This document shows, piece by piece, positions 5,725 through 41,211 of a DNA stretch of 64,000 nt. Source of the stretch: Sphingobium sp. 66-54 (GTDB lineage Bacteria; Pseudomonadota; Alphaproteobacteria; Sphingomonadales; Sphingomonadaceae). Below the pieces are notes generated by a model. The model worked only from the letters and a program-made list of their open reading frames with translations. It made no database searches and was not told the origin of the DNA. Each line of letters starts with the position of its first letter. Within the stretch, counting starts at the first letter, position 1. Both the position numbers and the translations under genes were made by a program. The stretch is from NCBI GenBank assembly GCA_001899715.1, contig MKWI01000006.1:310001-374000 (forward strand), given 5' to 3'.

Positions 5725-6450
5725 TCAAGCGGCCGCGTCCGGCAGCGCCCAATCGATCGCGCCGCGCCCGTTTTCGGTGAGAAACGCGTTCGCCCGCGAG
5801 AAATGCCGGCAGCCGAAGAAGCCGTTATGCGCGGAAAGCGGCGAGGGGTGCGGCGCGCGCAGCACGAGGTGACGACCACCTTGCGCCACGTCGCGGATGA
5901 AGCCGGCTTTCTTCTGCGCATAGGAGCCCCAGAGCAGGAAGGCGACCGGCGCCTCCTGCTCGGCCACGCGCGCAATCACCGCATCGGTGAACCGTTCCCA
6001 GCCGCGATTGGCGTGGGCGCCGGCCTTGCCCATCTCGACGGTCAGCACGCTGTTGAGCAACAGCACGCCCTGCCGCGCCCAATGATCGAGATGGCCGTGG
6101 CGCGGGCGCGACAAGCCGAGGTCGCCGTGCAATTCCTTGAAGATGTTGACGAGGCTGGGCGGCGGCGGAACGCCGGGCAGCACGGAGAAACACAGGCCAT
6201 GCGCCTGGCCGGGGCCATGATAGGGGTCTTGCCCGAGCACCACTGCGCGCACCGCCGGCAGCGGCGTCAAGGTCAGCGCGTTGAACCAGTCGGCCCCGCG
6301 TGGGAAGATGCGCGCGCCCGCCTCCTTGCGATCGACGAGGAAGCGCTTGAGATCGGCCATGTAGGGCGCGGCGAACTCATCGGCGAGCGCATCGCGCCAG
6401 CTCGCGTCGAGCGCGGCGGGGATGGTGGGCGGAGCGGCGGTAGCGGCCAT
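5725..6450 (-). CDS. ung: Uracil-DNA glycosylase
   Basis: [21 protein letters not shown]...[10 protein letters not shown]...[21 protein letters not shown]. Confidence 0.95.
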
Positions 6451-6523
6451 GGCCGTTGCCTATCCCGCCCGGTCTCCACTGCCAAGGAGGAAGTGGGCGC
6501 CGTCCATCCGGCGCGCCGGTGGG

Positions 6524-6913
6524 TCAGCCGATCCGGCCCCAGGCGTCGGCGATGTCGGCGATGAACTGGCGCGCCTGCTCCATCGGCTCGGCGCGATGCT
6601 GCGCCGTGGCCTCCAGCACGCGCTTGCGGGCCTCGCGATAGATGACCGCGAGGTTGACCGCGATCTCGCCGCCGCGCCCGAAGTCCAGACTGGTCTCCAG
6701 CGCATGGAGAATGGCGAGAGCACGGGTCTGCCGATCGAGGCACTGGGCGCGGTCTCCGCCACGCAGCGCCAGCGCGGCGGCGTCGAGCGAGAGCAGCAAC
6801 TCGTCGAACAACATCTTCACCAACTGGTGCGGGTTCGCCCCTTCGGCGCGGCTGCCGGTATCGACCGCCGCATAGTGCCGGAGCGCCTTGGCGGGATGCT
6901 GACCCATATACAT
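6524..6913 (-). CDS. fliS: Flagellar export chaperone FliS
   Basis: NPHQLVKMLFDELLLSLDAA...; immediately downstream of fliD. Confidence 0.85.
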   Translation of the reverse strand: MYMGQHPAKALRHYAAVDTGSRAEGANPHQLVKMLFDELLLSLDAAALALRGGDRAQCLDRQTRALAILHALETSLDFGRGGEIAVNLAVIYREARKRVLEATAQHRAEPMEQARQFIADIADAWGRIG

Positions 6914-6956
6914 CTATCGTACCCTCGTTTCTGTTGTCGTTGGGGAAAAGCGGGGC

Positions 6957-8348
6957 TTAGTCCTTGCTGCCGTTCCAGACCTTGATCTGCTGCTCCAGAT
7001 AGGACTGTGTCGCCTTGAACGCGGTCAGCTTGGCCTGCATCGTGGAATAGGTCTTGGTGAGCTGTGCCGAATAATCGGTGCGCTGCTGGTCGAGCTTGTC
7101 GAGCTGCTTGGCGAGGCTGTCGCGCATCTTCTCATAGCTCGCCTGCGAAGCGGCCAGCGGCCCGTCGATGCCGTTGACATAATCGGTGACACTCTTGAGT
7201 GCGCCGGCGACGCCCGGATGATCGGCATCCTTGACCGCCGGGTTGAGCATCTGCGTCACCGCCTCGGGATCGGCCGCGAGCACGGCGTTGAGCCGGTTAG
7301 TGTCGAGGCTCAATGTGCCGTCGCGCTCGGTGCGCACGCCGATATCCGCCAGCGTCCGGTAAGGGCCGGTCGCCGAAAGCTGGGTGGAGACCAGGCCGGC
7401 AAGGCGGCGGGACATGTCGCGCACGCCGGAGTCGGAGGAGAGCAGGCCCGCGGTGTCGCTCCCCGAACCGGCGGCCGTCGCGCTGTTCAACGCCCGCTTG
7501 AGGTCGTTGTAGGCGCTGACGAATTCCTTGACGAGGTCGCTCATCGACGTTGTCGGCTGGTCGGTGGCAAGGGTGACGGTGGTGCCCGGTGCTGCCTTGT
7601 TAAGGTCGATACGCACGAAGGGGATCGCCCCCGTCACTTCGTTGGAGGCATATTCCATATCGACATTGTCGATGCGGATCAGCGCGTTCTGTGCGCTTTG
7701 GCTGATCGCCATGCCCCCCGCCGCACCGTCCCACGTGAAGCGCTGGAGATCCGCATCCGCGCCGGCGTCAGCCGTGAGGGTGAACGCCTTGTCCACGCCG
7801 GTTTCACCCTTGAGCACCAGCCGCGCACCGGACTGGTCGGTCACGATCGACGCGGTGACGCCGGCATTGGCCACGTTGATCGCGCTGGCAAGGTCGGTGA
7901 GCGTGTTGGCCGGCGCATCCAGCGTGATCGTCGTGCTGGTCGTACCCACGGTCAGCGTCAGGCTGCCGGTGCCGGCCACGTCCGTCGCCGCGCCGAGCGG
8001 CGCCGATTGCAGCACCTGGCTGCGGGCGAGCTGGAGCACTTCGATCTGCGCCGGCAAGCCCTTGGGCACGCCGCCCGCGATCAGGCTGACCGAGGCGATG
8101 GACGGATCGTTGGAAACGGGCTGGCCGTTATAGGCGCTGCTCTGGAGCAGCTCGGTCAGCGCCGTGGAGAAAGTGGTGAGCGAGCTTTTGGCCGAAGCCA
8201 GCGCCGAGATCCGCGCATTGTTGGTGCTCACGCGATCGTTGACCACGCTCTCCTTGGGCAGGAAGGTCGCGTTCACCAGATCCGAGACGAGCTGGGTTGT
8301 GTTGAGCCCCGAGCCGATCCCCAATGCACTTGCGATGTCGATTGCCAT
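6957..8348 (-). CDS. fliD: Flagellar filament capping protein FliD
   Basis: Hook-associated protein 2 features: IGSGLNTTQLVSDLVNATFLPK..., long Ser/Thr/Ala-rich body and C-terminal coiled coil; context with fliS. Confidence 0.9.
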   Translation of the reverse strand: MAIDIASALGIGSGLNTTQLVSDLVNATFLPKESVVNDRVSTNNARISALASAKSSLTTFSTALTELLQSSAYNGQPVSNDPSIASVSLIAGGVPKGLPAQIEVLQLARSQVLQSAPLGAATDVAGTGSLTLTVGTTSTTITLDAPANTLTDLASAINVANAGVTASIVTDQSGARLVLKGETGVDKAFTLTADAGADADLQRFTWDGAAGGMAISQSAQNALIRIDNVDMEYASNEVTGAIPFVRIDLNKAAPGTTVTLATDQPTTSMSDLVKEFVSAYNDLKRALNSATAAGSGSDTAGLLSSDSGVRDMSRRLAGLVSTQLSATGPYRTLADIGVRTERDGTLSLDTNRLNAVLAADPEAVTQMLNPAVKDADHPGVAGALKSVTDYVNGIDGPLAASQASYEKMRDSLAKQLDKLDQQRTDYSAQLTKTYSTMQAKLTAFKATQSYLEQQIKVWNGSKD

Positions 8349-8445: not shown

Positions 8446-8880
8446 TCACTGGAGGACGGCTTCCACGCTGACATGCGGCGCGTTGGCCTGCGCGGCGCGC
8501 GCCTGCGCGGCCTTCTGCGCGAGCGACTGGGCGACCTGCGCGACGAAGGCGAGCATCTGCGGATCGGTCGGCGGCATGGGCAGCACGATCACGGGCTGCG
8601 GCATCAGCCCCATCAGCGCCGAATCCGCATGCGCGACCTGCTCATCGGCAGGCCGGCGGCGGGGCTGGAGATCGGCCAGCACATTGGCGATATCGGCGCG
8701 CAACCGCGCATAGGTCGCCGAAATGGCAGACCGCTCCGCCGCGTGCGGATCGACCTGGACATGGGCTTGCGCTTGTGCCTGCGCCGACCCGGCGCCCGAC
8801 GCGGCCTGCACGACGAGGCGGTGGTCCGCCACGCGGGACACCGAAGGCACCGGATCCGTCCGGGACAGAAACTCGTTCAT
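8446..8880 (-). CDS. Hypothetical protein encoded between flhB and fliD
   Basis: 144-aa Ala/Gln-rich ORF collinear with the flagellar operon; family not recognised. Confidence 0.65.
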   Translation of the reverse strand: MNEFLSRTDPVPSVSRVADHRLVVQAASGAGSAQAQAQAHVQVDPHAAERSAISATYARLRADIANVLADLQPRRRPADEQVAHADSALMGLMPQPVIVLPMPPTDPQMLAFVAQVAQSLAQKAAQARAAQANAPHVSVEAVLQ

Positions 8881-8936
8881 GACGCATCATCCTGATAGCG
8901 TCCCCTGAACAAAGAACGGACGAGTGCAACTAAGCT

Positions 8937-10082
8937 TTAATTCATGATGTTCTTGCCGTCCGAATCGAACCGCATCGCATCCGGCAGGTCGATATGCGGA
9001 CGGTCCATCTCGCTCGCCATGCGGTTCTCGATGCGGAACACGAAGGCAAGCACCGTCGCCACCGCCATGAACAATCGCTCGTCGATTTCCCGCCCGGCGC
9101 GCGAGGTGAAGTAGATGGCGCGGGTCAGCTCGGGATATTGCAGCACCGGCACGCCCTTGTCGTGCGCCAGCTCGCGGATCGCGGCAGCGATCTCGTCCGC
9201 GCCACGCGCCAGCACCACCGGGGCGAGGTCGCGGCCGGGGCGGTAGCGCAGCGCCACCGCGAAATGGGTGGGGTTGGTGAGGATGACCGAGGCTTCCTCC
9301 ACCGCCTTGCGCACCGACCCATGCAGCGTTTCATATTGCCGGCGGCGGATGGCGGCCTTGAGTTCGGGTGAACCGTCGCTCTGCTTGTGCTCCTCCTTCA
9401 CCTCCTGCTTGGTCATGTTGAGGCGGCGGGTGCGCTGGAGCATCTGCGCCGGCACGTCGATGCCGGCGATGAGGAACAGCGACCCCGCCAGCGCCAGCGC
9501 GACGAGGATGAAGATGGAGCCGAGCGCGCTGCTTGCCGGTTCCACGCCGGTCTTGGCCATGGCACGGATCGCGTCGGTATGCGTCCACAGCAGATAGAAG
9601 CCGATCGAGCCGAGCAGCAGGATCTTGGCGAGCGATTTCACCAGCTCGATGAGGCCCTGCAAACCGAAGATGCGCTTGATGCCGTTGAGCGGGTTCATCT
9701 TCTCAGGCTTGGGCTGAAACGCCTGCGGCCGGAAACCGAGCGAGCCGAGGAGTGCCGGTGCGGCGATGGCGGCGACGAGCGTGGCAAACAGCACCCCGCC
9801 GAGCGGCAGCGCGATGGTGCCGAGCAGATGGGTAGCGCGGTCATCCGGCTCGAAGCCGGCAATGTCGGCGCGGTCGAAGCGCAGCCCTTCGGCGAGCATC
9901 TGGCGGATCGCGCCGATCAGCGCCGGCCCGGCCACCGCCAGCCAGCCCACGCCGGCCATCACCACCAGCGCGGTGGAGAGTTCGCGCGACTGGAGGATGT
10001 CACCTTTCTTGGCGGCATCAGCCAGCTTCTTGGGTGTCGGTTTCTCGGTCTTTTCGCCGCCGCCCGGGCTCTCCTGCGCCAC
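8937..10082 (-). CDS. flhB: Flagellar export switch protein FlhB
   Basis: GEKTEKPTPKKLADAAKKGDILQSRE..., autocleavage NPTH motif (VILTNPTHFAVALRY). Confidence 0.96.
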   Translation of the reverse strand: MAQESPGGGEKTEKPTPKKLADAAKKGDILQSRELSTALVVMAGVGWLAVAGPALIGAIRQMLAEGLRFDRADIAGFEPDDRATHLLGTIALPLGGVLFATLVAAIAAPALLGSLGFRPQAFQPKPEKMNPLNGIKRIFGLQGLIELVKSLAKILLLGSIGFYLLWTHTDAIRAMAKTGVEPASSALGSIFILVALALAGSLFLIAGIDVPAQMLQRTRRLNMTKQEVKEEHKQSDGSPELKAAIRRRQYETLHGSVRKAVEEASVILTNPTHFAVALRYRPGRDLAPVVLARGADEIAAAIRELAHDKGVPVLQYPELTRAIYFTSRAGREIDERLFMAVATVLAFVFRIENRMASEMDRPHIDLPDAMRFDSDGKNIMN

Positions 10083-33809: not shown

Positions 33810-33900
33810 GGAGCGGTGGCCGAGTGGTCGAAGGCGCTCGCCTGGAAAGTGAGTATACGGCAAAACCGTATCGAGGGTTCGAATCCCTCCCGCTCCGCCA
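33810..33900 (+). tRNA. tRNA-Ser (anticodon GGA)
   Basis: GGAGCGGTGGCCGAGTGGTCGAAGGCGCTCGCCTGGAAAGTGAGTATACGGCAAAACCGTATCGAGGGTTCGAATCCCTCCCGCTCCGCCA: class II tRNA with long variable arm; anticodon loop CTGGAAA. Confidence 0.95.
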
Positions 33901-33903
33901 TTT
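33887..33903 (+). repeat. att direct repeat, left, inside tRNA-Ser 3' end
   Basis: CTCCCGCTCCGCCATTT, identical to 41195-41211. Confidence 0.9.
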
Positions 33904-34080: not shown

Positions 34081-35244
34081 GTGGAGCTTTCACCGATTAG
34101 GCTGCTTCGCGACGATGTAGCGGTTTGGCTTATCTACGCGGGTTACAACAGGCGCTTTCTAAGCGACTTTGCCGATAATAATCGGGTTTTCCTCAATATC
34201 CCGGGTTTCAACGCGACTCCTGCCGCATTGGAAGACGAAGTGCTGATGCGACGGCACCTCGCAATGTCCGACGCGGTTAATGAGGTTATCAGAGGGCATA
34301 CCAACACCGCGCCTTCACGTAATCCACTCGATTACAGCCCAACTCCTTATACTGCCAATACGCCTGATTCTCGACAGTTCTCTGCCGAGATTGGCAACAT
34401 TATCCGCCTTTATAAGAAGGCCAAAATTGGCGATATAATCATGTCGCCGGGTCACGGACAGTTTGACCCGTTTCTAATCGGGGAAATAACGAATAACTGG
34501 TCCAAAGCAGACGACCTTGTCGTGGCCCAGCTTGAGAATGAAATTGTTCCAGCGCGGCGCGTTCGCTGGATAAATGCCGTCGCGACTCGGCGCGACTTTG
34601 CGCCTCGCACTGCAAAGAGGCTTGTTAACAGGCACGCAATTACGTTAATAGACCGCCGGTTTTATCAGGATATTTTCGACAATATTTATCCAAGTTATTC
34701 TTGGGGTGAGAGATCGAAACTCGACCTGTTTGGCAATGGTTATGCCGGAAAAGACCCTCTTCAACCTTATGACGCCGCCAAGCTCTTAAAATATGTTATG
34801 TCAGCGGTCTTTGCCTATGAAGATAACAATTTTGCGGCCTTTCAGGCGCTTGATATAGATGCAGCAATTACCCAGTTCTATGATGAAAGCCGGGTAGCAG
34901 AGCTTGCTCAGAACTTCAATTCTCCGGGCAAGTTCACGATCATTGCGAAGAGCGGAATTGCCGCCATATTGATGGCGGGCGGTATCATGATGGCTACAGC
35001 CGATCCAAATGTAGGTTTCCCACAGCAGCGCGCTCAAGTTTCTGCGCAGATTGGCGGCGCGCTACAAGGGGCCGGACAGGTTGAAGCCAAAACCGAACTC
35101 GACAACTTTATTAACTCATTTGATAGCACAACGTGGAGCCCGGTTCAGTCATCTCTCGGAAAATCAGCAAAGAACACGCTAGATTTGACGTTAGATAACT
35201 CTGTGGAGGTTGCTCGCCATAAAGATGAGCTTAATGCCAAATAG
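34081..35244 (+). CDS. Unknown protein with Mrr-N/PUA-like N-terminal domain and hydrophobic C-terminal segment; candidate defence-cassette gene A
   Basis: GTG start after ggggagggg; pattern AVWLIYAGYNRRF...FSAEIGNIIRLYKKAKIGDIIMSP...FLIGEIT...ARRVRWINAVATRRDFAPRTAKRL resembles the N-terminal domain of Mrr-like restriction proteins; hydrophobic segment IIAKSGIAAILMAGGIMMATA; AT-richer than its surroundings. Confidence 0.75.
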   Translation: MELSPIRLLRDDVAVWLIYAGYNRRFLSDFADNNRVFLNIPGFNATPAALEDEVLMRRHLAMSDAVNEVIRGHTNTAPSRNPLDYSPTPYTANTPDSRQFSAEIGNIIRLYKKAKIGDIIMSPGHGQFDPFLIGEITNNWSKADDLVVAQLENEIVPARRVRWINAVATRRDFAPRTAKRLVNRHAITLIDRRFYQDIFDNIYPSYSWGERSKLDLFGNGYAGKDPLQPYDAAKLLKYVMSAVFAYEDNNFAAFQALDIDAAITQFYDESRVAELAQNFNSPGKFTIIAKSGIAAILMAGGIMMATADPNVGFPQQRAQVSAQIGGALQGAGQVEAKTELDNFINSFDSTTWSPVQSSLGKSAKNTLDLTLDNSVEVARHKDELNAK

Positions 35245-35764
35245 AATATCAAGCTGGCTTAAATCCAATTTCCCGGTTCTCTTTGATGAGAAGATGCCGG
35301 TATGGATGACCATTGCAGCAAGCATTGCCGCCGCTGGCCTGACATATTATTTTGCTCCAATGTATTCACGGCAGTTTCAGATCGAAGATGTGCGGAGCGC
35401 GCACCTTAAACAAACCACTGACCAACTTAATAGCGAGATTATAGAGCTTTCACAGAAGGTTCGTAGATTTGATTCGGCATTGGTCAATGAAAAAGATAGC
35501 TCGGTCGATCTAAGAGAGGATTGCTTAGACCTTATAACAAAACTCCAATGGAGATTGGTTGATCTAAGAGTTGTTCTTACCGAGCCGGAAGATGAGCGGT
35601 ATGTATCATCGCTTTCAAAAGCTTTAGAAGGTCTGCGTGTCAAACTTAACGCCCCGGTCACACCCACATACAGACAAGATGTCCGAGCGGCGATGGCAAG
35701 CCTCGGGTCCGCGACTACAGCGGTGTTAGGCCGACTCTATGCCAAGGCATCGTTGCAAGGCTAA
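35225..35764 (+). CDS. Unknown single-TM coiled-coil protein; candidate defence-cassette gene B
   Basis: Overlaps gene A by 20 bp from ATG 35225; TM segment VWMTIAASIAAAGLTYYFAPMY followed by a long helical region; same AT-rich composition. Confidence 0.75.
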   Translation: MSLMPNRISSWLKSNFPVLFDEKMPVWMTIAASIAAAGLTYYFAPMYSRQFQIEDVRSAHLKQTTDQLNSEIIELSQKVRRFDSALVNEKDSSVDLREDCLDLITKLQWRLVDLRVVLTEPEDERYVSSLSKALEGLRVKLNAPVTPTYRQDVRAAMASLGSATTAVLGRLYAKASLQG

Positions 35765-35773
35765 GCCTATAAA

Positions 35774-35807
35774 AACCCCCGGCCAAAGGGAGTAATGGCC
35801 GGGGGTT
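35774..35807. terminator. Hairpin terminator between convergent transcription units, probably bidirectional
   Basis: AACCCCCGGCCA-(10 nt)-TGGCCGGGGGTT, perfect 12-bp stem. Confidence 0.78.
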
Positions 35808-35850
35808 AGGTGCCGCCGGGCACTAATCGGCGGTAGCGCGTGAGATAATG

Positions 35851-36531
35851 CTAGACCTCAACCCGGCGGTTGGCTTGGCTGGCGAGTTCGCGGTTGTAGA
35901 AAAACAGGTGAACCTTGCTGATGGCCTCGGGGTATTTGGCCGCAAGCCCCGTCAACTCTTGGCTATGCTGGATTTTCGCCCAACCGTTCGGGGCAAACCG
36001 CTGGAACCCGTCCACGATGATTTTGTCTCGGGTGTCCGGCGAAAGCTCGGTGAGGAAATGAGGGGAGCCATAGAGGACGGCCACAACCTCGCTATGGCCT
36101 TTGGCCGCTTCCCGGATTTTCATAATCCCGTCCGGTTTGCTAACCTGTTCCCGTATCCAACCCCGCATTTCCGCGTGAATGACTTGGCGGTTCGGGTCCA
36201 ATGCAAAGGCATCGGCAATAAGCTGGTTGCCCTCGTTGCCGAGTTCGCGGGCCACCGCTTCAATACTGGCTTGGGATTGCTCAAGAACCGTGGAAACCTT
36301 CCCGGCAAGCTGGCGGGCGGCATGGTGCTGATCTACCGTGGTCCGGGTCGGGTCTTGGGCCAGCGCGATTACCTTGGGTATCGTCTCGGCAATGGCATTG
36401 TGGGCAAACCCGATGGCGTTGAAAGCGGCTCCGTTGAACTTGGCCTTGTCCCCGAGTGCAACCTTGCGGCCGGTGTCGGTAGCCATAAGTTCCATAAATC
36501 CGGCGGCATCCGGTGAATTGACGAGATACAT
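35851..36531 (-). CDS. Hypothetical protein of the integrative element
   Basis: 226-aa ORF, helical-looking, no recognised family; collinear with element genes. Confidence 0.65.
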   Translation of the reverse strand: MYLVNSPDAAGFMELMATDTGRKVALGDKAKFNGAAFNAIGFAHNAIAETIPKVIALAQDPTRTTVDQHHAARQLAGKVSTVLEQSQASIEAVARELGNEGNQLIADAFALDPNRQVIHAEMRGWIREQVSKPDGIMKIREAAKGHSEVVAVLYGSPHFLTELSPDTRDKIIVDGFQRFAPNGWAKIQHSQELTGLAAKYPEAISKVHLFFYNRELASQANRRVEV

Positions 36532-36556
36532 TGTCTTAATCCTTGTTTGAGTTGGG

Positions 36557-37081
36557 TTAGTATTTCTTCATTTCTTCAAGAGCGATTTCGACCTCCCTGT
36601 TCATCCTTCGCCGTTCCAAGAACTCTTGGATTTCTTCCCAAGTCATGTCCGAATAGTCGGGCTCGGTTTCGTGTTTGGTGATGAGTTCGCGCGGAACCAG
36701 TCCCCCAACCAGTTGCAGATATGCCGCCGGGTCTTTCTCCCGGAGCTTGGCCAAAGCCTCCGCGCCGTGCTCGGCAAAGTCGTCCGCGATCACGGTTAGG
36801 AACTGGTCGGTAAGGCGGTTGCGAGAACCCTTTTTGCGGCCCGGACCACCGTTAGAACCCGATACAAATTGGCCCTTGGCGTTGCGCTCGGAAGCCGCCA
36901 CGGGAGGACTGGCAGGCGCGGGCGAGGCCACGGGGAGGTTGGTGCCCACATTCACCGCCGAACGGCCCCACTGGTCGCCCTGGACGGCCGTGGGAGGTGC
37001 ATCACAAGGTTTTGCCGCCTCGGGCACCATTGGGGCGGGTGGCTGGCCCCACGCGCTGTCACGATAGCGCCGGTCAACCAT
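36557..37081 (-). CDS. DUF5681-like / putative small-terminase-like protein
   Basis: NAKGQFVSGSNGGPGRKKGSRNRLTDQFLTVIADDFAEHGAEALAKLREKDPAAYLQLVGGLVPRELITK resembles DUF5681 proteins found in phage packaging loci; start placed at ATG 37081. Confidence 0.65.
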   Translation of the reverse strand: MVDRRYRDSAWGQPPAPMVPEAAKPCDAPPTAVQGDQWGRSAVNVGTNLPVASPAPASPPVAASERNAKGQFVSGSNGGPGRKKGSRNRLTDQFLTVIADDFAEHGAEALAKLREKDPAAYLQLVGGLVPRELITKHETEPDYSDMTWEEIQEFLERRRMNREVEIALEEMKKY

Positions 37082-37562
37082 GACGGCCCCCTTGCCCGAG
37101 CAACAGGCCCGCATATTCGGTTTTCGGTGTAGCCCGGCCATCATGCGGCATGACGTTCCGGTAGAATTGCGGACAATCGGCTGGACCGTTGAAAGCCCGC
37201 CAAACCGCTTTCAGGAACCTATCTGGCAATAGGTCTTCAAACCGCTCCCATGTCGGCTTGTCGTCTATCAACGCCTTGAACAGAATGAGGCGGTCAACAA
37301 GGTTCCTCATCTCGGGGATGAGTTCGCTAACCTGTTTTTCGATCCTGCCGACTTCCTGCCATCGGGCTTTGATGTTGGCAGATACGGCAAGCATTTTGAT
37401 GACCCGGCCGATTTCCCAAGCATCGAACAGGATCGAACCAGCATAGTCATCCCGCATAAGAAACAGGATGGCTTGGGCGAAAATCATCCGCCTATCTTCA
37501 TCGGTTCGCCCGTCCGATAAGTGCGAGCCAAACTCATCTTCAATCTTTGCAAGCACGGTCAT
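37074..37562 (-). CDS. Hypothetical protein of the integrative element
   Basis: Start placed at ATG 37562 (MTVLAKIEDEFGSHLSDGRTDEDRRMIFAQAILFL...), leaving the paired repeat at 37581-37604 just upstream; the longer ORF runs to 37799. Confidence 0.6.
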   Translation of the reverse strand: MTVLAKIEDEFGSHLSDGRTDEDRRMIFAQAILFLMRDDYAGSILFDAWEIGRVIKMLAVSANIKARWQEVGRIEKQVSELIPEMRNLVDRLILFKALIDDKPTWERFEDLLPDRFLKAVWRAFNGPADCPQFYRNVMPHDGRATPKTEYAGLLLGQGGRHG

Positions 37563-37580
37563 AGGTTGGCCTTTCAACCC

Positions 37581-37604
37581 TTTATGTTGGCCGGTATGTT
37601 GGCC
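37581..37604 (-). repeat. Paired 12-bp repeat, internal
   Basis: Reverse strand GGCCAACATACC + GGCCAACATAAA; same paired layout as both ends of the element. Confidence 0.75.
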
Positions 37605-37795
37605 AATCTTGGAAACTCGGTAATTTGTTGAGTAAAACCGCCGAACACTGGCGGACTCTATCTCTGCCCACATACTCGGGGCTGAATAGTTCAAGGGGTT
37701 GGGGGTCATCGCCTCCCGGACAATCGGACATCCCCTAAAGGGAGATGTCCATGTCCGTCCGCTACCGAGGGTAGGGCGACACTGGACATGTCCGG

Positions 37796-39145
37796 TCATT
37801 GTCCACCCCCTGTCCGTTGTCCGGTGAGGATAGCGGCGATGACGGCATGGGTTGCCGAGGCGTTCAAACCGGCAAATCGGTAAATGTCGTTATCGACCGC
37901 AATATGCCCGTCAGCCGCCAAATCTTCGCGGGCACGGGCGAAAGCCTTGCGCTTCGCTTCCTTATTGTCGGCCGTGGAAATCCTTAAAAACTCGGCATAC
38001 CAGTCCGCGAAAGTCACACCGATGAACTCGCCATGCTCATTCAAGATGCCGTGGGAGCGGGCCGCATTTTCCAGCGCCGTGAAAGCAAGCTGGCGATTAC
38101 CCCTCAACGGTCGGGTGAATTGTTGGGTGGCCCCGCTGTCGGGTTCGATCACGCATGATGTAACCGGGTCGCCATCGGCATCGGTGCCAAGGTCAACGAC
38201 CTTCAACCGGAACCCATGTTCCTCCCCGTCCTTACCGTCTTTGGCCTTGTCGAGTTTCCAGCGGCGGGCATCACCATCCCGGCTAACCAGTATGGCGGCA
38301 TCAAGCGCGGCAAACAGGCTTGAGTGCCCGCGCAACCCTTTGGTGGAGTCCTTGCCACTGTGGGCAACAAGGATGACGAGCCCGGCGATTTTCCGTTGAA
38401 GGGTCTTTGCCCCCTCAATGACACCGCCCATGTCCTTGGAGCTATTCTCGTCCAAACCGGGAGCGGCACGGTTGAGCGTGTCGATAATGACGACACAACC
38501 CGGCGGGCATATATCGGCAAGGTCGGAAACGTCTTGCTGGTCGGTCAACCGGAAGGGTTGGAGCGAGAACCGGACAGCATCGGGCATGGCGCGGCCGTGA
38601 TGGCGCTCCCATGCCAATACCCGGCCACGAACCCCGGCTTCACCTTCAAGCCCGACATAGAGAACCGGCGCGGGTGTTGTGGGGTATCCGAAGAACTGCG
38701 CACCCTCGCCAATCGCGGCGGCGGCGGCAATGCACCAAAACGATTTGCCGTCTCGGGATGCGCCATAGACAACAACCATGCCCTCGGACGGGGCCACGCC
38801 CTTGATGCGATATTGCATCGGGGTCGGGTCGAGTTCGGCGGCGGTTTGAGGTTTGAACCGAGCTTTCCGGGACGCGGCGAATATATGCCGCTCCAATACC
38901 TCGGTCATAGCGTCCGGGTCGGGACGGGCCTTTGCCCACAATCCCTTGGCCTTGAACCGGCCGTAGGGTTTTGCCCAATCTAGGTAGAGTTCTTCATGCC
39001 TTATCCCCGCCGTCTTCAAGGCAGCGGCCACCATTTTCAGGTCTTCCGGGTTCTTGGCCGGGATGACCGAAAGCATATCCCGCAACTTGTCTTGCTCATC
39101 GGCAAGCGCGGGCGGTTCAAAGAATATGACCGGAGCGGACGCCAT
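37796..39145 (-). CDS. PriCT2/RepA-like AAA ATPase (replication protein)
   Basis: N-terminal DKLRDMLSVIPAKNPEDLKMVAAALKTAG...LYLDWAKPYGRFKAKGLW (PriCT_2-like), Walker A VYGASRDGKSFW, CVVIIDTLNRAAPGLDENSSKDMGGVIEGAKTLQRK typical of RepA-type helicases. Confidence 0.82.
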   Translation of the reverse strand: MASAPVIFFEPPALADEQDKLRDMLSVIPAKNPEDLKMVAAALKTAGIRHEELYLDWAKPYGRFKAKGLWAKARPDPDAMTEVLERHIFAASRKARFKPQTAAELDPTPMQYRIKGVAPSEGMVVVYGASRDGKSFWCIAAAAAIGEGAQFFGYPTTPAPVLYVGLEGEAGVRGRVLAWERHHGRAMPDAVRFSLQPFRLTDQQDVSDLADICPPGCVVIIDTLNRAAPGLDENSSKDMGGVIEGAKTLQRKIAGLVILVAHSGKDSTKGLRGHSSLFAALDAAILVSRDGDARRWKLDKAKDGKDGEEHGFRLKVVDLGTDADGDPVTSCVIEPDSGATQQFTRPLRGNRQLAFTALENAARSHGILNEHGEFIGVTFADWYAEFLRISTADNKEAKRKAFARAREDLAADGHIAVDNDIYRFAGLNASATHAVIAAILTGQRTGGGQ

Positions 39146-39150
39146 AGGGA

Positions 39151-39393
39151 TTACGCCGCAAGCTCCGAACGCTGGCGCTCAAGGCTTACAACGAGTTCCC
39201 GGATTTCATCGTCCGACTTGCCCGCGATCCGGGCGGCATTGATGGCGGCAACCTCGTTCTCGGGCCAAGCGGCCATGCGGGAACCGAGTTTGACGGGACG
39301 CGGGAATAGACCTTGTTTGGCGCGAAGATAGACGGTTGGCCGGGCGAGCCCGGTTCGCTCCATGACGGCGGGGAGGCGCAATAGGTTGTTCAT
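39151..39393 (-). CDS. AlpA-family transcriptional regulator
   Basis: LLRLPAVMERTGLARPTVYLRAKQGLFPRPVKLGSRMAAWPENEVAAI. Confidence 0.88.
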   Translation of the reverse strand: MNNLLRLPAVMERTGLARPTVYLRAKQGLFPRPVKLGSRMAAWPENEVAAINAARIAGKSDDEIRELVVSLERQRSELAA

Positions 39394-39484
39394 GGGTTAC
39401 TCCTGAACTTAACAAGTTTCAGGAGCCGTTTTTGACCTACCCAAGTCTAACTAGACAACTTGATTAAAATAAGTCTGGTAATTG

Positions 39485-39745
39485 TCAGTTTAATCTATCT
39501 AGTTCGGCAATTTTACTCGCAATATCTGTTTTTCGTCTTGCCTCTTGTTCGGAGGAAACCGCCGGTAGGTTCCGTGAATATTCCTCGTAAATCACGTCAA
39601 CTGCCTCAAGGTAGGTATTCAGCCCGGCGCGTTTCGCCGCCAATGCCTTCAACAGTAATGGCAATTTCTCCGGCGTATCCAGCCGCTTCCGGCCGCGTGT
39701 TTCGATAACCGGAATACCGTTATCCGGTGGACCATATCCATTCAT
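39485..39745 (-). CDS. Small hypothetical protein coupled to integrase
   Basis: MNGYGPPDNGIPVIETRGRKRLDTPEKLPLLLKALAAKRAGLNTYLEAVDVIYEEY...; ATGA overlap with the integrase stop. Confidence 0.6.
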   Translation of the reverse strand: MNGYGPPDNGIPVIETRGRKRLDTPEKLPLLLKALAAKRAGLNTYLEAVDVIYEEYSRNLPAVSSEQEARRKTDIASKIAELDRLN

Positions 39746-41040
39746 GCCGCCGAACCCTCCCGGATACCGACAACATTCCCGCCGGGTTTCTGGACGGTCC
39801 CCGCGTAAGTCGCCCAATCGGCCATGAGCTTGACCCGCTTAGGCAACAGGCTTCCCCGCTGGTATGCGGCTTCCGCCTTGTCGGCCAAACTGTGGGCAAG
39901 AGCATGTTCAATGACCTCACGCGGGTATGCGGTTGTCTCACCGGCCCATTCCCGGAAGGTGGACCGGAACCCGTGTTGCGTAAGCCCGGTGCGGTCCATA
40001 CGCTTGAGGACGGCCGTAAGCGCCATATCGCTCATTGCGCCGCCCCGAGGGGCCGGGAACACATATTCGGTGCCCTTGACCCTCGGGAGCGTCTTGAGCA
40101 ACGCAACGGCCGCGTCGGACAGGGGGACGCGATGTTCCTTGCCAGCTTTCATACGGTCGGCCGGGATTACCCACATTTGGGCGTCTAGGTCGATTTCCGC
40201 CCATGTCGCGTTGCGGACCTCACCCGAGCGGGCGACGGTGAGAATAGCGAACTCAAGGGCGCGGGCCGAAATGCCATCGCGCTTGCGAAGGTCCACCATG
40301 AACGAACCGAGTTCGGCATAGGGCAATGCCGCATGGTGGCCCCGTGTCAGGCGTTGGCGCTTGGCAAGGGAGTGTTCAAGGTTGCCCTTCCATGCCGCCG
40401 GGTTCTCGCCATCCCTGTAGCCGTTGACCTTCGCCCAATTCAGCACGGTTTCAATCCGGCCGCGAAGGCGGGAAGCGGTTTCGCTCTTGGTCGCCCAAAT
40501 CGGGCGGAGAACGTCCAATATCAATCCGCGATCAACGGACGATACCGGGAGCTTGCCGAGTTTCGGATAGGCGTAGGTTTCAAGCGTGGCGCTCCATTGC
40601 TTGACGTGCTTGTCATTCTTCCATTCGCCAGACTTGTCCGCGATGCACAATTCCGCACATTCCTTGAAGGTTTTGGACTTGGCGGTTTCAATGTGGGCAG
40701 CTTGCTTTTGGACCCGTTTTTCCTCGATTGGATCAATCCCGCTCCGAACCTTCGCCCGGATTTCGCGGGCTTTGTCCCGAGCTTCGGCCAGTGACAAACC
40801 TTCCTCCCGAACCGATTGCTCAAGGGTAAGGCCGATTTTGCCGTTATAACGGCCAAGGCCAATATCGCGGCGGCGCTCACCGATCTTAAGGCGGAGTGCC
40901 CACACTTTGGTCCCGCCTTCCAACCGGAGGTGCAAACCCTCGCACCGATCACCACCAACCATGACCCGGTGATTGGTCTTTCCGTCCGCCTTCAACCTCT
41001 CAACCGCCGGTGCGGTCAACGCCTTTGCCACCTTCGGCAT
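39742..41040 (-). CDS. int: Tyrosine-type site-specific integrase (P4/CP4-57 type)
   Basis: N-terminal LTAPAVERLKADGKTNHRVMVGGDRCEGLHLRL; catalytic region ILTVARSGEVRNATWAEIDL...HGFRSTFREWAGETTAYPREVIEHALAHSLADKAEAAYQR. Confidence 0.96.
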   Translation of the reverse strand: MPKVAKALTAPAVERLKADGKTNHRVMVGGDRCEGLHLRLEGGTKVWALRLKIGERRRDIGLGRYNGKIGLTLEQSVREEGLSLAEARDKAREIRAKVRSGIDPIEEKRVQKQAAHIETAKSKTFKECAELCIADKSGEWKNDKHVKQWSATLETYAYPKLGKLPVSSVDRGLILDVLRPIWATKSETASRLRGRIETVLNWAKVNGYRDGENPAAWKGNLEHSLAKRQRLTRGHHAALPYAELGSFMVDLRKRDGISARALEFAILTVARSGEVRNATWAEIDLDAQMWVIPADRMKAGKEHRVPLSDAAVALLKTLPRVKGTEYVFPAPRGGAMSDMALTAVLKRMDRTGLTQHGFRSTFREWAGETTAYPREVIEHALAHSLADKAEAAYQRGSLLPKRVKLMADWATYAGTVQKPGGNVVGIREGSAA

Positions 41041-41053
41041 ACCAGAACCCCTT

Positions 41054-41077
41054 GGCCAACAATCCGGCCAACATAAA
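41054..41077 (+). repeat. Paired 12-bp repeat upstream of int
   Basis: GGCCAACAATCC + GGCCAACATAAA, starting 14 bp upstream of the int start codon. Confidence 0.75.
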
Positions 41078-41194: not shown

Positions 41195-41211
41195 CTCCCG
41201 CTCCGCCATTT
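41195..41211 (+). repeat. att direct repeat, right
   Basis: CTCCCGCTCCGCCATTT, identical to 33887-33903. Confidence 0.9.

Follow-up and report, generated by a model that had tools for sequence, protein, structure and literature searches.

Along the left edge of a tRNA-integrated island in Sphingobium sp. 66-54 lie two genes, A and B, whose base composition and direction set them apart from the remainder of the island. What such a pair does, for the cell or for the element that carries it, is the question raised by this locus. Analysis of the surrounding 64,000-nucleotide stretch of DNA (the window), of the two proteins and of their homologues makes it probable that A-B is an anti-phage defence module not described before.

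Gene pair and host element

The element carrying A-B is a 7.3-kb tRNA-Ser island, and A is the first gene inside its left end (Table 1). The sequence-only reading had described two overlapping plus-strand genes that are richer in AT than the chromosome and the rest of the element, run opposite to the other element genes and are closed by a strong hairpin. All four features were borne out, except that B most likely starts at ATG 35234 and not at ATG 35225. The former agrees better with homologues in an alignment with the nearest relative, matches the position at which B begins in a close relative (L005) and gives an 11-nt overlap of A and B, found likewise in L005 and L020. GC content is 49.4% in A and 46.7% in B, compared with 58.3% elsewhere in the element and 67% in the 5-kb chromosomal flanks, and the likely element genes beyond the pair are all on the minus strand. 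The hairpin has a folding energy of -27.9 kcal/mol (z -3.9; 0 of 200 shuffles equally stable) and is likely a bidirectional terminator. A search of the region upstream of A gave no promoter of sigma-70 type.

Both genes are conserved at the protein level. Relative to the counterparts returned by the first protein search from another genome of the genus, pN/pS is ~0.12 for A (84% identical) and ~0.16 for B (81% identical), and a second pair of loci gave dN/dS values of 0.03 (A) and 0.10 (B). These low ratios indicate that A and B are genuine genes rather than chance ORFs.

Elsewhere in the element, GGCCAACA repeats lie close to both ends (33955 and 41054-41073) and are likely integrase arm sites; an inverted double copy of GGCCAACA is located mid-element (37585-37604), inside ORF 37074-37799. 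A 110-aa minus-strand ORF (39485-39817), which overlaps the integrase gene at its 3' end and has no family match, may be spurious.

Table 1. Positions in the window of A, B and the remaining features of the host element
Feature	Position	Strand	Basis or content
tRNA-Ser (GGA), integration site of element	33810..33900	+	ARAGORN
Left att core CTCCCGCTCCGCCATTT, 3' end of tRNA	33887..33903	.	17-bp exact repeat
Gene A, 387 aa, GTG start	34081..35244	+	N-terminal reader domain and putatively membrane-associated C-terminal domain
EVE/YTH-like (PUA superfamily) reader domain, A residues ~14-183	34120..34629	+	hhalign, PDC-S02, Foldseek
SPG turn of beta hairpin, A residues 281-283	34921..34929	+	Family alignment, AlphaFold
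Weakly hydrophobic segment, candidate membrane helix, A residues 287-305	34939..34995	+	
Gene B, 176 aa (179 from ATG 35225)	35234..35764	+	N-terminal TM helix and four-helix bundle
B transmembrane segment, residues 26-44 of 179-aa version	35300..35356	+	
Strong hairpin between convergent A-B unit and minus-strand genes	35765..35811	.	Folding energy
Rest of element	35851..41040	-	Pfam/PHROGs
Gene without assigned function, between hairpin and TerS-like gene		-	
TerS-like protein	36557-37144	-	By eye
Gene without assigned function, between TerS-like and AAA_25 genes		-	
AAA_25 primase/helicase-like protein	37796-39145	-	Pfam
AlpA	39151-39393	-	Pfam
Tyrosine integrase	39742-41040	-	Pfam
Right att core, copy of CTCCCGCTCCGCCATTT	41195..41211	.	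17-bp exact repeat

Domain structure of A and B

The N-terminal half of A is homologous to the reader of Mrr-type (PDC-S02) and McrB-type restriction proteins, as the sequence-only reading had supposed for the Mrr type from the layout of the N terminus. Residues ~14-183 align with the Mrr-type proteins L056 and L059 over 133 columns (hhalign probability 95%, E 4e-8) and with the reader of the McrB-like L041 (E 6e-6; 7.6e-9 with a combined profile), whereas these Mrr- and McrB-like profiles pick up nothing in the C-terminal half. The PADLOC PDC-S02 model matches three A-family members (L006, L031 and L032) at 9.9e-5 to 7.4e-7, compared with 1.9e-128 and 1e-48 for the Mrr-type proteins themselves; matches in the A family are restricted to profile positions 17-192 of 346, and the A of the window falls below the PADLOC threshold for PDC-S02. 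PHROG 10226 also matches the reader region.

The AlphaFold model of A, built with 14 sequences, has a pLDDT of 79 and a pTM of 0.78. Foldseek matches to the PDB are headed by 2ar1, a Leishmania hypothetical protein that we take to be of EVE/PUA type, and by many YTH domains, with probabilities of 0.6-0.97 and weak E-values of 0.03-0.3. The likeness to EVE/YTH is one of fold only, and homology to the canonical housekeeping EVE domain (PF01878) was rejected at the sequence level: Pfam gave no match, and hhalign with the EVE proteins of relatives gave a probability of 0.4%. Given the lack of a sequence relation to canonical EVE and the weak Foldseek E-values, the ligand of A could be other than a modified base; that the reader binds nucleic acid is highly likely. 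YTH-like and EVE domains attached to McrB GTPases and PD-(D/E)XK nucleases are described as modified-base readers (PMC7641849).

The C-terminal half of A contains no nuclease domain, as had also been noted from the sequence. There is no Pfam nuclease match in any A-family member, the family alignment lacks a conserved acidic/lysine set beyond residue 190, and profile positions 193-346 of PDC-S02 are matched by no A-family member. Positions conserved after residue 190 are mostly Y203, Y206, the SPG turn (S281 and G283 invariant in 18 homologues, P282 in 17 of them), a Cys pair (shared by 14 of the 18 members but absent from the clade of the window) and W352. Neither A nor B has an AAA or GTPase match in Pfam or PHROGs, and the sole ATPase of the element is the AAA_25 primase/helicase-like protein. 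A search of solved-structure sequences returned only ribosomal eL18 at an E-value of 0.07, a chance match.

The hydrophobic stretch that had been pointed out in place of a nuclease is present but weak, with a Kyte-Doolittle maximum of 1.85 over 19 residues and a modelled helix of only 13 residues (294-306). Charges summed over the family are basic before the segment (net about +10) and acidic after it (-17), which fits an N terminus inside and a C terminus outside. Given the weakness of the helix, membrane insertion of A is uncertain.

B has a single N-terminal transmembrane segment and is otherwise helical, in line with the earlier description; the proposed long open tail is instead modelled as a compact four-helix bundle into which the transmembrane helix runs (pLDDT 83, pTM 0.66). 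Foldseek matches of B in the PDB are to chemoreceptor ligand-binding domains and FAT domains, none below an E-value of 0.001, and reflect the generic four-helix bundle. No column is invariant over 14 B sequences, which fits a structural or membrane role rather than an enzymatic one. Pfam, NCBIfam and PADLOC matches of the A and B of the window (such as TGase_elicitor, TraP and PhoU) are at chance level. It is likely that both proteins reside at the membrane.

Homologues, pairing and genomic settings

Protein and profile searches identified ~20 divergent A loci, with identity down to ~20%, and all confidently assigned homologues are from Alphaproteobacteria. The first protein search had also returned an A of 25% identity from a different family within the order and a homologue on a 6.3-kb Methylobacterium plasmid. 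Random samples gave A in 5 of 299 genomes from the order and in 4 of 385 from the class, counts that take in marginal or partial matches (L016 and L023); in the phylum sample, the only match outside the class was one McrB-type reader domain. Scans of genome and viral collections with single-protein patterns gave no matches; one alignment was too diverse for patterns, and patterns from subset alignments succeeded. Two candidates were removed from the family, a marginal match in genome G428 (L016, L024) and a match in G982 (L041) that is a McrB-type reader. The viral structure library held one full-length fold match, A0A8S5NVT7 of Myoviridae sp. ctEBR14 (Foldseek E 8.8e-15, 383 columns), which suggests that the architecture of A may extend beyond Alphaproteobacteria.

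A check on co-occurrence, proposed with the sequence-only reading, showed an almost constant partnership. Each of the 19 intact pairs has a B-type gene (157-198 aa, helical, one N-terminal TM) downstream of A on the same strand and within 75 nt; the two genes overlap by up to 50 nt or lie as much as 73 nt apart. A crude rule combining size and TM, with thresholds drawn to include the known Bs, selected 6% of 307 neighbouring ORFs versus 19 of 19 partners. Distances among A and among B proteins are correlated (Spearman rho 0.40, 0 of 2000 permutations as high), weakly so among deep branches (0.14).

B is frameshifted beside an intact A in L019 (8960-9498) and L021 (about 8530-9130), both on long contigs of near-complete genomes, and the A of L023 is shortened and ends after the reader domain. 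No broken A with an intact B was seen among the loci found. This suggests that A without B is tolerated, although the cases are few and may be assembly errors. The occurrence of A without B and outside islands, which had been named as evidence against a cassette, is seen in part: the chromosomal copies L019, L020 and L021 lack recognisable integrase or phage genes, and two of them have the frameshifted B; we read these as decaying copies. L020 has an intact pair between tsf and pyrH on the chromosome, with no integrase or transposase nearby in that interval, and L021 is chromosomal, near rpsL and trxA, without element genes (gene names in both by eye).

Nearly all A-B loci are in prophages, tRNA sites, islands or plasmids. 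L019 occupies the same tRNA-Ser site as the window, and three loci (L027, L028 and L031) are at tRNA-Arg(CCG). Proviral contigs carry L017, L018, L032-L035 and L038, and plasmids carry L004 and L025. In the P2-like prophage of L005, the pair directly follows tail gene D (Pfam Phage_GPD) and is opposite in direction to the late operon; in L030 it follows a tape-measure-like protein (by eye), and in L006 it adjoins phage lysis-type genes in a region that also encodes an OLD-family ATPase (PADLOC Old, E 5.6e-19). Thioclava plasmid p5 (L025) has a nucleotidyltransferase and a SAVED-domain gene ~8-9 kb from A-B, a pair that is CBASS-like by annotation. The 23- to 45-kb region of p5 (L025/L060) forms a compact defence-type cluster that includes this nucleotidyltransferase/SAVED pair, A-B, an AAA plus M41-peptidase protein with an IetA-like ATPase domain and a Tox-REase-5/Imm52 pair. 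In L027, a 436-aa protein adjoining A-B (6432-7742), with MKVFWSWQSDTPGK near its start, looks like a nucleotide-binding/TIR-like protein and has no Pfam or PADLOC match below 1e-3.

The P2-like prophages of L005 and L038 are related (tail protein D 68% and XRE regulator 59% identical) and carry A-B pairs in the same cargo slot, but these pairs are only ~20% identical and look unrelated. Among 17 additional tail-gene-D regions taken from the genus of the window, the readable ones have varied cargo in the interval from tail gene D to the XRE regulator. In G080, this slot holds an ATPase that matches PtuA (positions 12-356 of 386; E 1.7e-13) next to what is by eye an HNH protein, a Septu-like pair. 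Other cargo of this hotspot (L086-L102), named by eye, includes an MBL-fold hydrolase set (L098), a 1420-aa protein of RHS size (L089), GSCFA-like and sulfotransferase-like genes (L088, L095) and, in addition, several genes without assigned function. P2-like phages and satellites bear hotspots of anti-phage cargo (PMC9122126). The tail gene D/XRE hotspot is worth mining for defence systems.

Known systems and proposed function

The inability to match the pair to a named system, acknowledged when it was first described, persisted after searches of PADLOC, Pfam and NCBIfam, and the pair proved to be an almost obligate two-gene unit of mobile elements. PADLOC 2.0.0 (2023) has no model matching the A or B of the window, and A-family members matched only PDC-S02, in the reader part, and two models through weak single-member hits, GajB (0.0068) and PDC-S05 (0.0089). 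No named system of this composition was found in PADLOC 2.0.0, Pfam or NCBIfam, and no described two-gene system of reader plus membrane protein was found in open-access literature.

Known systems resemble A-B in part. Mrr-type/PDC-S02 proteins have a homologous reader in the same N-terminal position and a similar length (~340-390 aa), but carry an Mrr-type nuclease at the C terminus (by eye in L056 and L059), where A has the SPG domain and the hydrophobic helix. In type IV McrBC systems, the homologous reader is found inside McrB-like GTPases (L041, L057 and L058), whereas A-B has no GTPase and no McrC nuclease and has a membrane-type partner instead. RexAB of lambda, and the RexAB-type system of Pseudomonas putida, which consists of a sensor and a membrane protein (PMC12894663), share with A-B the two-gene prophage layout of sensor plus membrane protein, with A as a putative DNA-binding sensor. 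Homology to RexAB was looked for and rejected (hhalign probability 0.1% for the A family with lambda RexA and 0.2% for B with RexB); RexB-type proteins have four TM helices and B has one, and A, unlike its counterpart in RexAB, is itself predicted to be membrane associated. RexAB may be regarded as the nearest functional analogue, unrelated by homology. Two relatives have no assigned function: A0A8S5NVT7, with an A-like fold over its full length, and PHROG 10226, which resembles A in the reader region.

An anti-phage role for A-B is fairly likely. It is consistent with the defence-type setting, in which A-B and a Septu-like pair share a cargo slot and other defence genes lie near A-B loci. The fuller description, a nuclease-free anti-phage cassette of reader A and membrane partner B carried by temperate phages, satellite-like islands and plasmids of Alphaproteobacteria, has somewhat better than an even chance of being correct. 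Such a cassette would act in superinfection exclusion or abortive infection. A would read nucleic acid, most likely modified bases carried by an invading phage or element; its C-terminal domain would sit on or in the inner membrane, with the last part periplasmic, and A would work there with the single-pass, four-helix-bundle protein B. Binding by A would shift the A-B assembly into a state that compromises the membrane or keeps DNA from entering. A membrane lesion as the outcome is a tentative proposal. Less likely than not is a nuclease-free form of modification-dependent restriction, in which a reader at the inner membrane would bind marked foreign DNA and cause a lesion or an entry block through B.

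Several other functions were considered. The pair could be a toxin-antitoxin-like or otherwise self-stabilising module, with a membrane-active toxin, an inhibitor and phage defence only as a secondary effect. Single-TM helical proteins are common membrane toxins, and the two genes are small, overlap and occur also on the 6.3-kb plasmid; yet a protein as large as A, with its restriction-type reader, would be an unusual antitoxin, and A is intact beside the frameshifted B of L019 and L021, so B is not needed as an antitoxin against a toxic A. The reverse arrangement, with B as toxin and A as neutraliser, is possible, but a toxin-antitoxin function as a whole is improbable. Service to the element itself, in phage lysis, morphogenesis, satellite packaging or regulation, would explain why A-B adjoins lysis or tail genes in L005, L006, L030 and L038. 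Against it, phage structural genes are absent where the pair lies on tRNA islands, on plasmids or between housekeeping genes (L004, L019, L020, L021 and L025), the direction of the pair is opposite to that of the late operon in L005 and of the other genes in the window, and closely related prophages hold unrelated cargo in the same slot. This function is very improbable.

Closer to the preferred reading is an entry or superinfection-exclusion apparatus, in which A captures incoming DNA at the membrane, transfer is blocked and the cell survives. Residence in prophages, satellite-like elements and plasmids is compatible with this, as is a reader fused to a putatively membrane-associated domain with no enzymatic signature, but the libraries searched contain no known exclusion protein homologous to A-B, and sequence does not distinguish exclusion from an abortive mechanism. 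As a separate explanation, exclusion is improbable; it is a sub-case of the anti-phage cassette, minus the membrane lesion.

Bacterial modified-base readers are known mainly as the aiming parts of nucleases and GTPase-nuclease complexes. A-B would be new in joining modification-type sensing to a different effector. If the anti-phage reading is true, A-B would show that a membrane response can be coupled to the recognition of modified phage DNA, and it would provide a compact, testable 1.7-kb system from Sphingomonadales, Rhizobiales and other Alphaproteobacteria, hosts that are little covered by defence screens.
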